Origin: Victivallis vadensis
Lineage (GTDB): Bacteria > Verrucomicrobiota > Lentisphaeria > Victivallales > Victivallaceae
Length of the DNA stretch: 64,000 nucleotides
Direction of reading: 5' to 3'
Assembly (NCBI RefSeq): GCF_003096415.1
Contig: NZ_QEKH01000015.1
Span: 1-64,000, forward strand
Under the pieces are notes generated by a model. That model ran no database searches. It saw only the letters and a program-made list of their open reading frames with translations, and was not told the DNA's origin. How positions within the stretch are numbered: position 1 is the stretch's first letter; the number at the start of each line of letters is the position of its first letter. The translations under genes and the position numbers were made by a program. This document shows, piece after piece, positions 29,082-63,560 of this stretch.

Positions 29082-29409
29082 CCGGAGCTTTGCCTCCGGC
29101 GGCCGGGGGCGCTTCGCCCCCCGGGCCCCCCGACCGGCAAGGTGCCGGCGCCGGGTACGGTTTCGAGCTTTTTGCTACGCAAAAATCTCAAAACCGGGGG
29201 GTACTATCTATCAGTTTATTCGCTCTATGGGCGGTATCTGCCACCGGGTGCTACCCGGTCGTGATCCAACGGCGAAACCGTTGGCCGCCGGAGGTAATTT
29301 GTGCGCTACAGCGCCCAGCTACCGGTGCCTGATTGAAAATCAGGCCGCGTAGCGCACAAGGTCTGCAAACCGCAGGGTTGCAGACCCGCCTGCCTTCAAA
29401 ACGGCAGGC
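29082..29409. repeat. chain of eight adjacent hairpins (noncoding)
   Basis: Eight stem-loops follow one another: 29082-29099, 29101-29127, 29158-29196 (inner TTTTTGC-TAC-GCAAAAA), 29243-29259 (ACCGGGT-GCT-ACCCGGT), 29266-29284 (CCAACGG/CCGTTGG), 29301-29357 (outer GTGCGCTAC/GTAGCGCAC enclosing GCCTGATT-GAA-AATCAGGC), 29360-29386 (GGTCTGCAA/TTGCAGACC) and 29388-29409 (GCCTGCC/GGCAGGC). There is no coding potential. The CGGCAAGGTGCCG...GCCGGGT module near 29134-29155 recurs in the repeats at 56.7 and 63.3 kb. Confidence 0.75.
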
Positions 29410-35782: not shown

Positions 35783-36784
35783 ATGGTTACGCTGAAAGAT
35801 GTGGCAAAGGCCGCCGGTGTCAGTTGCTCGACAGTTTCGGCGGTACTGGGCAACCGCGCCGAGAAGCTGGGCATCAAGCCGGAGACCCGGAAGCTGGTTC
35901 AGCGCACCGCCGCCCGGATGCGCTATCGCCGCAACGCGATCGCCGCGCAGATGAAATCGGGGCAGGCCAACACGCTTGCGATGATCCTGCCCGAAGGCGG
36001 CACCCCGGAATTCGTGATGCGCGCCGCGACCGCCGCAACGGTCGAAGCGGAAAAGCACGGCTGTTTCATGAAGATCATCGCCGCAAACGGCAAAGAGGAC
36101 TTCATCACCCGTCTGGATTCCGTGCTGAGCCAATGTCCGGCGGCGCTGCTGCACTGGGGCAAGGCGGGCGAACGCGGCGATTATCTGATGAGTGCGGCGC
36201 GGGAGTGCGGCGTGCCGGTGGTGTTTCTGGACTTCTCCGAAACGATCGGTTCCGGCAGCGTGCGCACCGACGACCGGGCCGGAATCGCGCAGGCGGTGGA
36301 GCATCTGTACGCGCTCGGACACCGCCGGATCGCGCACGTGACGACCTTCAAAGGGGAACGCTTCGGCGACGAACGCGCAGAGGCGTTTCTGGCGGAGATG
36401 GCGAAGCGCAGCCTGCCGGTGAAAACGGAATGGATTTACCGGGATGAATGCTTCCGAAGCGGCGGGCCGCTGGTGCCGTTTCTGGAGCGGCTGTTTTCGG
36501 AGCCGGATCGGCCGACGGCGGTGAGCTGCGGCAATGACCTGATCGCGCTGCGGGTGATGACGGCGCTGGAGCGGCAGGGGATCCGGATGCCGGAGGAGGT
36601 TTCGGTGATCGGATACAGTGACCTGAGTTTCGGGGTGGCGTGCGAACCGGAGCTGACCACGATCCACCAGCCGTTCGACCGGATGGGTGAAACGGCGGTG
36701 AAGCTGGCGCTGGACGGAGGAGAGCGGGAAGTGCTGATCCCGACGGAGCTGGTGGTGAGAGGCAGTACGGCTTCTCCCTGCTGA
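35783..36784 (+). CDS. LacI-family transcriptional regulator
   Basis: The 333-residue protein has an N-terminal LacI helix-turn-helix (VTLKDVAKAAGVSCSTVSAVLGN). The hinge region follows, and then a periplasmic-binding-protein-like sensor domain (NTLAMILPEGG, VFLDFSETIGSGSVRTDDRAGI, GHRRIAHVTTFKGERFGDER). The end of the domain is VIGYSDLSFGVACEPELTTIHQPFDRMG. Its location next to fucI suggests control of fucose use, but its ligand is unknown. No obvious ribosome-binding site precedes the ATG. Confidence 0.9.
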   Translation: MVTLKDVAKAAGVSCSTVSAVLGNRAEKLGIKPETRKLVQRTAARMRYRRNAIAAQMKSGQANTLAMILPEGGTPEFVMRAATAATVEAEKHGCFMKIIAANGKEDFITRLDSVLSQCPAALLHWGKAGERGDYLMSAARECGVPVVFLDFSETIGSGSVRTDDRAGIAQAVEHLYALGHRRIAHVTTFKGERFGDERAEAFLAEMAKRSLPVKTEWIYRDECFRSGGPLVPFLERLFSEPDRPTAVSCGNDLIALRVMTALERQGIRMPEEVSVIGYSDLSFGVACEPELTTIHQPFDRMGETAVKLALDGGEREVLIPTELVVRGSTASPC

Positions 36785-36789
36785 AAAAA

Positions 36790-37070
36790 AGAAAAAAATC
36801 AAAAAGGAAGCCGCTTCAGCGGCATCGCCGCCGGCAGCTTGCCGGACGCGGTCTAGCGGCGGAACGCTGGTCGCTTTGCGCAGGGGCGCGCAGGCGCGGC
36901 CCCGGAGCGAAGCGAAATGTAAGGTCGGCGGATGCCGACCGCAACCGCAACAGTACCTACCGAGCAAAAGCGCTTGCCGGAATCAAAAATAAGCGACGCG
37001 AATTTTTGTTTCCGGCGGTAAGCGCGTTGCCGCCTGACATCACCCTTACGGCCACCGAAAACCCTTGCAA
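36790..37070 (-). repeat. structured repeat family B, copy 1
   Basis: The element begins with an A-rich tract and the hairpin GCCGCT-TC-AGCGGC (36810-36823). Read on the minus strand this is an intrinsic terminator with a long U tract. Further stems include GGGGCGCG-CAGG-CGCG(G)CCCC, GGTCGGC-GGA-TGCCGACC and a 15-position stem at 36976-37016 with an 11-nt loop. It ends near the shared block CATCACCCTTACGGCCACCG. Confidence 0.7.
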
Positions 37071-37084
37071 AGCTCTGTTCCTTC

Positions 37085-37380
37085 CCCCAATAAAGAAAAA
37101 CCAAGAAGAACAGGCGGCAAGCTGCCGCCGTCGCCGCCGGCAACTTGCCGGACGCGGTCCAGCGGCGGAACGCTGGTCGCTTTGCGCAGGGGCGCGCAGG
37201 CGCGGCTCCGGAGCGAAGCGAAATGTAAGGTCGGCGAATGCCGACTGCAACCGCAACAGTACCTTCCGGGCAAAAGCGCTTGCGCCGGTCAAAATAAGCA
37301 ATGCGCATTTTGACCGGCGCGTAAGCGCGTTGCCGCCTGACATCACCCTTACGGCCACCGAAAACCGTTGCAAAATTCTG
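37085..37380 (-). repeat. structured repeat family B, copy 2
   Basis: Same order of modules as copy 1. The terminal hairpin is GGCGGCA-AGC-TGCCGCC (37113-37129). The large stem (37282-37320) has a different sequence, GCGCCGGTCAAAAT/ATTTTGACCGGCGC, but the same 11-nt loop size and the same AAGC loop start. Flanking blocks are nearly identical to copy 1. Confidence 0.7.
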
Positions 37381-37401
37381 CCGCCTTGCCGATCACACAA
37401 C

Positions 37402-37441
37402 AACCTTGGAGTGCGGAGATTTATCTCTGCTTTCCAATCGC
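37402..37441 (-). repeat. structured repeat family C, copy 1
   Basis: The minus strand reads GCGATTGGAAAGC followed by a hairpin (37413-37430; GCAGAGAT/ATCTCCGC with one wobble) and CACTCCAAGG. It matches the copies at 37496 and 57499. Confidence 0.6.
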
Positions 37442-37495
37442 GCCCGGCTTTTACCGGTACGGCAGTCCAACTTGCTTAATCAGCCGAGGTTATGT

Positions 37496-37544
37496 GCGAC
37501 TTGAAAGCGGAACTGAAATTCTGCACTCCCAAGGCGCTTCGCGC
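37496..37544 (+). repeat. structured repeat family C, copy 2
   Basis: GCGACTTGAAAGC, then a hairpin GCGGAA/TTCTGC (37507-37524), CACTCCCAAG and a second hairpin GCGC-TTC-GCGC (37534-37544). The order is the same as at 57499. Confidence 0.6.
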
Positions 37545-37671
37545 AGCTGGGGCGCTCTCGCACCTGCATGGTTGCGTCTGCAATTATAATCCGCTTCCGA
37601 CGCCCCTCGCGGCGGCTCCGCGCTTCGAACCGGCAGCTCAAAGGCGCTTCGCTTCTTTGAGCTGCCGCGCG

Positions 37672-37845
37672 CTCCGCCGAGTGGTACTGCTGTATTGCGG
37701 TCGGCATCCGCCGACCTTACATTTCGCTTGCCTCTGGGCTGCGCCTGCGCAGCCCGGCGACAAGCGACCAGCGTTCCGCCGCTGGACCGCGTCCGGCAAG
37801 CTGCCGGTGGCGACGCCGCTGCGCGGCTTTACTTTTTTTGTTTTC
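37672..37845 (+). repeat. structured repeat family B, copy 3 (inverted, partial)
   Basis: The first half of the element is present in reverse orientation. Its terminal hairpin GCCGC-TGC-GCGGC (37815-37827) is followed on the plus strand by a long T-rich tract, a good intrinsic terminator 32 bp before uvrB. The stem equivalent to GGGGCGCG/CGCGCCCC is GGGCTGCG/CGCAGCCC here, with the loop kept. Confidence 0.7.
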
Positions 37846-56633: not shown

Positions 56634-56686
56634 TGCAGACCGGCGGGCAGCCGGGCGGCAAGGTGGCGGCAAGGTGCCGCTGCCGG

Positions 56687-57178
56687 GTGCCGCTGCCGGG
56701 GGCGCACGCCAATGCCCCTACGGGGGGCGTGCGGCGGCTGGCACTGGTGAGCCGTGGTTGGTCGGCATATCACCTTACGCGATGCACAAATAAGGCCGAA
56801 TCGCCGTTTTCGCGGCGCACAACAAGCGCGGTCAGCGCCGCGGCGGCAAGGTGCCGCTGCCGGGGGCGCACGCCAATGCCCCTACGGGGGGCGTGCGGCG
56901 GCTGGCACTGGTGAGCCGTGGTTGGTCGGCATATCACCTTACGCGGCGCACAAATAAGGCCGAATCGCCGTTTTCGCGGCGCACAACAAGCGCGGTCAGC
57001 GCCGCGGCGGCAAGGTGCCGCTGCCGGGTGCGCACGCCAATGCCCCTACGGGGGGCGTGCGGCGGCTGGCACTGGTGAGCCGTGGTTGGTCGGCATATCA
57101 CCTTACGCGATGCACAAATAAGGCCGAATCGCCGTTTTCGCGGCGCACAACAAGCGCGGTCAGCGCCGCGAACGAATG
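56687..57178 (+). repeat. structured repeat family A, tandem array of three 164-bp units
   Basis: Units start at 56687, 56851 and 57015, each with GTGCCGCTGCCGGG. They are almost identical, differing at a few positions such as CGATGCAC/CGGCGCAC. Each unit holds GCACGCC-AATG-CCCC-TAC-GGGG-GGCGTGC, CGGCT/AGCCG, CCTTA/TAAGG and GCCG/CGGC stems. The third unit runs into the conserved downstream block shared with the copy at 63257. Confidence 0.85.
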
Positions 57179-57310
57179 TGAGGGAATTATTTTGCTGCCG
57201 CAAAATAACGAGGAACGATAGTGACGAAGCCGAACGTAGAGAGCGAAGCCCCTCCGGCGTAGTGAGCGCAGCGAACGCTGAGGAGTTGGCCGCCGCAGGC
57301 GGACAAGTAA
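57179..57310 (+). repeat. family A downstream block (array copy)
   Basis: The block is conserved with 63417-63560. It starts CGAACGAATGTGAGGG, then the hairpin TTATTTTGC-TGCC-GCAAAATAA, then GACGAAGCCGAACG, CGAAGCCCCTCCGGC and CAGCGAACGCTG. It ends with the hairpin CCGCC-GCA-GGCGG (57290-57302) and ACAAGTAAGC. Confidence 0.8.
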
Positions 57311-57498
57311 GCGGCGAAGCCGCGCCCGCGAGCGGAAGTGCTCCGCAACCGGACCGGCCTCAGCCACCGGCGAGGGGGTCCGGGGGACGTGCGCGACGTC
57401 CCCCGGAGCCATCCGCAGGCCGGAGGTGCGGTACTCACTACCCTCCGGGCCCCCTGCCTGTTCTTGATGCAATGCAAAGCCGGGTATAACACTCACGT

Positions 57499-57548
57499 GC
57501 GACTGGAAAGCGGAGATGAATCTCCGCACTCCAAAGACGCTTTGCGTC
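57499..57548 (+). repeat. structured repeat family C, copy 3
   Basis: GCGACTGGAAAGC, the perfect hairpin GCGGAGAT-GA-ATCTCCGC (57510-57527), CACTCCAAA and the hairpin GACGC-TTT-GCGTC (57536-57548). The same layout is present at 37496. Confidence 0.65.
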
Positions 57549-63124: not shown

Positions 63125-63256
63125 ATTTCCCCGCCTGCCCCGGATCAGCTTAAAAAAATCGTAAAAAATTCTGTCGCACCTATTGACAATCGCATCCGAC
63201 TTTGGTATAATTGGAGTAGGCCTTTTGCTGAAAACAGCAAATGCCATAAAACGGAC

Positions 63257-63560
63257 GGCAAGGTGCCGCGGCCGGGTGCGCACGCCAATGCCCCTACGGG
63301 GGGCGTGCGACGGCTGGTACAGGCGAGCCGTGGTTGGTCGACAAAACCATCTACGTGGCGCACAAGTAAAGCTACATTGCCATTTACGTGGCGCACAACA
63401 AGCGCGGTCAGCGCCGCGAACGAATGTGAGGGAATTATTTTGCGGCCGCAAAATAACGAGGAACGATAGTGACGAAGCCGAACGTAGTGAACGAAGCCCC
63501 TCCGGCATAGTGAGCGCAGCGAACGGTGAGGAGTTGGCGGGCGTAGCCCGACAAGTAAGC
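63257..63560 (+). repeat. structured repeat family A, single copy with downstream block
   Basis: One unit of the 164-bp type (63257-63416) and the downstream block (63417-63560). Differences from the array are concentrated in stems: GCCA/TGGC instead of GCCG/CGGC (63379-63392), and CGGGC-GTA-GCCCG (63538-63550) instead of CCGCC-GCA-GGCGG. It ends 75 bp before the prepilin gene. Confidence 0.85.

Follow-up and report, generated by a model that had tools for sequence, protein, structure and literature searches.

A dispersed family of mosaic multi-hairpin repeats at gene ends in Victivallis vadensis

Results

The window analysed here is a stretch of 64,000 nucleotides from Victivallis vadensis. 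Between the gene for a LacI-family regulator (stop at 36784) and uvrB, the intergenic space contains three copies of a repeat. Copies 1 and 2 are direct repeats (36790–37080 and 37090–37385, respectively) with 92% identity over 169 nt, while copy 3 is inverted and runs from 37850 down to approximately 37406, the inverted arms being 109 nt long and 83% identical. Copy 1 begins where the LacI-family gene stops, and uvrB lies about 30 nt beyond the end of the copy 3 terminator. The parts of the three copies are as follows.

36785–36808, + strand: A-rich leader of copy 1, directly after the stop of the LacI-family gene; on the - strand it is a T-rich terminator tail
36810–36823, - strand: terminal hairpin of copy 1, GCCGCT/AGCGGC, with a U-rich tail
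36827–36873, + strand: core of copy 1 (pseudoknotted hairpin H1 and hairpin H2; model R1, 69.2 bits)
36873–36918, + strand: hairpin H3 of copy 1 (long, variable) and conserved CGAAAT
36923–36940, + strand: hairpin GGTCGGC/GCCGACC of copy 1
36977–37015, + strand: large stem of copy 1, CCGGAATCAAAAAT/ATTTTTGTTTCCGG, with 11-nt loop AAGCGACGCGA
37088–37129, + strand: A-rich leader of copy 2 and its terminal hairpin GGCGGC/GCCGCC (37113–37129; terminator-like on the - strand)
37133–37179, + strand: core of copy 2 (71.5 bits), where a C-A mismatch disrupts one of two pseudoknot pairs
37282–37320, + strand: large stem of copy 2, GCGCCGGTCAAAAT/ATTTTGACCGGCGC, with loop AAGCAATGCGC
37406–37630, - strand: remaining inner part of copy 3, which holds a 36-nt palindrome
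37631–37667, - strand: large stem of copy 3 ('type 2' inner part), CGGCAGCTCAAAG/CTTTGAGCTGCCG, with loop AAGCGAAGCGC
37699–37716, - strand: hairpin GGTCGGC/GCCGACC of copy 3
37765–37811, - strand: core of copy 3 (74.0 bits)
37815–37845, + strand: end hairpin of copy 3, GCCGC/GCGGC (37815–37827), and T-rich tail, a terminator just before uvrB

A sequence-only reading of this DNA had proposed that in two copies the large stem differs completely, is base-paired in each and keeps an 11-nt loop starting with AAGC. The stems of copies 1 (with one T-T mismatch) and 2 do pair and do carry such loops, although an apical TCAAAA(A)T is common to both and the difference was therefore slightly overstated. 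The large stem of copy 3, which lay beyond that description, likewise has an 11-nt AAGC loop. The reported exchange of the GGGGCGCG-type GC stem (hairpin 3) for GGGCTGCG/CGCAGCCC is real, and each copy has, as described, a different short end hairpin followed by a U-rich tract, at 36823–36810 (-), 37129–37113 (-) and 37815–37827 (+).

A covariance model built from the first two hairpins of the core returned at least 117 matches of at least 42 bits in the V. vadensis genome, a lower bound from 150 scored candidates. Core matches were found in 24 of 61 related genomes, and the named relatives are Lentisphaerae/Victivallales assemblies. Across 241 genomes of the phylum every match at the strict threshold lay within the same family and none outside the order Victivallales. 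The core is more widely shared than the full-length 'type 1' copies, which were seen in this genome only. An Rfam search of the window and five related loci gave no match above the curated threshold, the best low-threshold matches being far below the cut-off, and a known RNA family was rejected on this basis. Origin from a phage, plasmid or virus was also rejected, with no match among viral contigs, plasmids and phages, and likenesses to hammerhead and HDV-like ribozymes, integron attC sites and riboswitches were dropped, as the core seems to lack their features (formal comparison by Rfam). Judged from these sequence searches, the repeats form a large, previously unlisted family that, within the genomes searched, is confined to Victivallales.

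Related modules occur elsewhere in the window at 29110–29290, with a partial core at 29122–29152 and a diverged core at 29240–29287 (42 bits) in which both stems are replaced by complementary alternatives, CCGGGT/ACCCGG and CCAACG/CGTTGG. The 36-nt palindromic repeat TTGGAGTGCGGAGATTTATCTCTGCTTTCCAATCGC of copy 3 (37406–37441) recurs in inverted orientation at 57499–57534. A different repeat family, made of 164-nt tandem units, occupies 56652–57540 and 63241–63560; it has CGGCAAGGTGCCG in common with the core, and an 89% copy at 63256 lies directly upstream of a pseudopilin-like gene.

The core of approximately 80 nt consists of a pseudoknotted hairpin, a second hairpin and a third hairpin, followed by CGAAAT, and is reused with varying flanking modules. 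In 103 distinct core sequences, 97.6% of the cells are standard pairs, against 80.5% in shuffles, a control that may be inflated by related sequences, and 30–42% in slid controls. Both sides have changed in 13 of the 15 core pairs among the same 103 sequences. In the pseudoknot, the two nucleotides on the 5' side of hairpin 1 vary together with two in its loop, as GG/CC, CG/CG or GC/GC; 97.9% are paired, as scored in a covariance model of which the pseudoknot was no part, and the three states recur across genomes and classes notwithstanding the possible inflation of the shuffle control. The pairing of the large stem is far beyond chance: across ten copies it is 98.3% paired, against 68% in shuffles, and both partners have changed in 9 of its 12 pairs. 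The covariation across copies that had been set as a test is thus strong in both the core and the large stem. Read on the strand that runs from the pseudoknot to CGAAAT, the pseudoknot has a linker of two bases spanning a stem of six base pairs; this geometry fits an H-type RNA pseudoknot, which looks sterically feasible on this strand only and not on the terminator strand. The compensatory changes could also reflect a function of single-stranded DNA instead of RNA.

Terminator-like sites number seven in the locus, against 2.7 in shuffles. In 18 of 20 family copies a script detected an end hairpin followed, on the same strand, by a tail with 9–13 T among its first 15 nt; in the remaining two, which it missed, the hairpin is visible in the alignment. 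When seven 'type 1' and 13 'type 2' copies from across the genome were aligned, they showed the order A-rich leader, short GC hairpin and shared core, with one of two inner parts after it. At another locus (L126, approximately 1216–1964) a palindromic element lies inside the loop of an apparent bidirectional terminator (AAAATAAACCTATCCGCCTTCGGCAT ... ATGCCGAAGGCGGATAGGTTTATTTT).

The sequence-only reading took each copy for a repeated noncoding RNA gene ending in an intrinsic terminator, which would put the genes of copies 1 and 2 on the reverse strand and that of copy 3 on the + strand. The conserved multi-stem body, its covariation and the terminal hairpin with a U-rich tail on one strand all stand, and the fold z-score of the terminator strand is -2.8. 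The opposite strand, however, folds equally well (z-score -3.3), and no sigma-70-like promoter was found in the repeat copies, including at the end opposite the terminator, where a test for one had been suggested. The absence of an Rfam match also counts against such a gene. Moreover, the copies belong as modules to a mosaic family dispersed in the genome, in which the core is combined with unrelated modules and forms palindromes of approximately 700 bp. In single copies it is mostly the opposite strand that runs in the direction of the flanking genes, so that the terminator strand usually lies antisense to transcription of the neighbours. Stand-alone noncoding RNA genes are therefore very improbable.

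The commonest class in this genome is a palindrome of approximately 700 bp (649–955 bp, n = 30), with outward-pointing cores at both ends, ending at GCGAAATCCC. Sampled palindromes are only about 78–87% alike over aligned stretches. A protein-coding palindrome was rejected, as the inner part is without a long open frame. With strands assigned by codon usage, trained on window genes, the genes flanking the 30 palindromes are convergent in 22 cases, codirectional in six and divergent in two, and stop codons are often 3–30 nt from the boundary. The convergent bias has P ~1e-6 if 30% of spacers are convergent, an assumed figure. The class found in the window has codirectional genes on both sides in 14 of 14 cases, with the A-rich end usually at the upstream stop codon. 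Among 32 scored single copies, many of them related and the test hence not fully independent, 26 have the pseudoknot strand in the orientation of the upstream gene and 6 do not.

Gene-end location is not universal, as the core also lies upstream of pseudopilin and other genes. At loci L044–L047, L053, L060 and L062 cores are immediately upstream of pseudopilin genes; at one pseudopilin locus, inspected by eye, the frame that leads into FTLIELL continues upstream across the core, and no clear start codon lies in between. With its pseudoknot and three hairpins, and with pseudopilin genes downstream of several copies and other genes downstream of it in relatives, the core would be compatible with a cis-regulatory RNA, riboswitch- or leader-like, that is centred on it and controls the downstream gene. 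The downstream genes are diverse, though, the commonest class has convergent genes on either side and hence no downstream gene, and a riboswitch would not be expected to be dispersed in so many copies, all of which makes this explanation very unlikely.

The family could instead be non-autonomous mobile DNA, MITE- or REPIN-like, in which an enzyme recognises the hairpins as single-stranded DNA and the pairing reflects mobility, not RNA function. Inverted core pairs with the fixed outer boundary GCGAAATCCC, found in this genome and in genome G014, are in keeping with this, as are lineage-specific expansions and the GC-NNN-GC mini-hairpins (e.g. GCGAAGC) held in the large-stem loops; GCGAAGC-type mini-hairpins are extremely stable in DNA. 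Against it, the elements show no target duplication (mean best repeat 3.2 nt, against 3.24 when shuffled), which led to rejection of a MITE with target duplication. The RAYT-type Y1 transposase is absent from this genome, the richest genomes being without it, and showed no correlation with the family across 61 genomes; a RAYT-driven REP was accordingly rejected. No transposase gene flanked by cores was seen among the loci inspected, and the open reading frames of a 1.55-kb core pair in genome G056, read by eye, include no recognised transposase. The limited likeness of the sampled palindromes also speaks against mobile DNA, which we regard as possible but unlikely.

A lone retron-like reverse transcriptase gene (321 aa, YADD) is present at locus L269 (1366–2331), downstream of an smpB-like reading frame; as the only one and not flanked by cores, it was rejected as a partner.

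The copies are lineage-specific. In this genome an element follows serS, and none does so in seven congeners. Among the plus-strand loci compared, no exact empty site was seen at uvrB in congeners, where the upstream genes differ, and a search for joined flanks at six palindrome loci never found the two sides next to each other. No complete empty site turned up, as gene order around all six of the palindromic elements tested (L128, L129, L223, L225, L230 and L232) is rearranged in congeners; the elements may coincide with rearrangement points.

Discussion

On balance, the three copies probably belong to a large dispersed family of mosaic multi-hairpin repeats at gene ends, REP/BIME-like and far larger, which combine RNA structures with outward-facing terminators and were gained by copying. 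According to this proposal, the copies would be transcribed together with neighbouring genes and would fold within 3' or intercistronic untranslated RNA. The outward-facing terminal hairpins would end transcripts leaving the element, for example on the + strand at 37815–37845 before uvrB, and such transcript ends may insulate neighbouring genes from one another and protect the 3' ends of RNA. The copies would have been gained in the lineage by a copying process that leaves no target duplication and needs no RAYT-type transposase.

A bolder reading, which we consider improbable, would make the family a novel type of mobile element in bacteria: the pseudoknotted RNA core would itself be what is recognised and copied, in a SINE-like way and possibly through RNA guidance or reverse transcription, and the element would also serve as terminator and insulator at gene ends across an order. 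If the proposal of gene-end repeats is true, a little-studied order carries unlisted structured repeats that are larger and more complex than REP/BIME, contain a covarying pseudoknot and mark gene ends; they would be a test case for the spread of structured repeats without a RAYT transposase and for the genome-wide setting of transcript ends.

REP and BIME sequences are palindromic, mosaic and of high copy number, alternate in orientation and are enriched between convergent or unidirectional genes (PMC3733652, PMC1525189, PMC2817692). The Victivallales family is also palindromic, intergenic, mosaic, alternating in orientation and of high copy number, with stems kept as structures. Its position is REP-like, as there are at least 117 copies and the flanking genes are convergent or codirectional for 28 of 30 palindromes and for 14 of 14 members of the window class. 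By contrast, REPs are 20–40 bp long with a GTAG or CGTC tag, whereas the core of this family is approximately 80 nt long with three hairpins and a pseudoknot, its composites reach approximately 300–900 bp, it has no constant tag and it does not correlate with RAYT-type Y1 transposases. Among 138 distinct core regions, GTAG was present in 11 and CGTC in 54. CGTC-tagged REPs have been described as lacking a dedicated transposase (PMC3733652), a trait that this family appears to share, and CGTC adjoins the core in many window-class copies; the limited occurrence of CGTC among the core regions, together with size and architecture, sets the family apart from them.

Like MITEs and REPINs, the family shows inverted pairs, defined outer ends and lineage-specific expansion, but it has neither a target duplication nor an identified partner transposase and is palindromic throughout, not at its ends alone. 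Bidirectional intrinsic terminators are likewise intergenic, and the paired copies of the family resemble them in carrying an A-tract, GC hairpins and a T-tract at opposite ends; in the repeat family, however, hundreds of bases of conserved modular structure separate the two ends.
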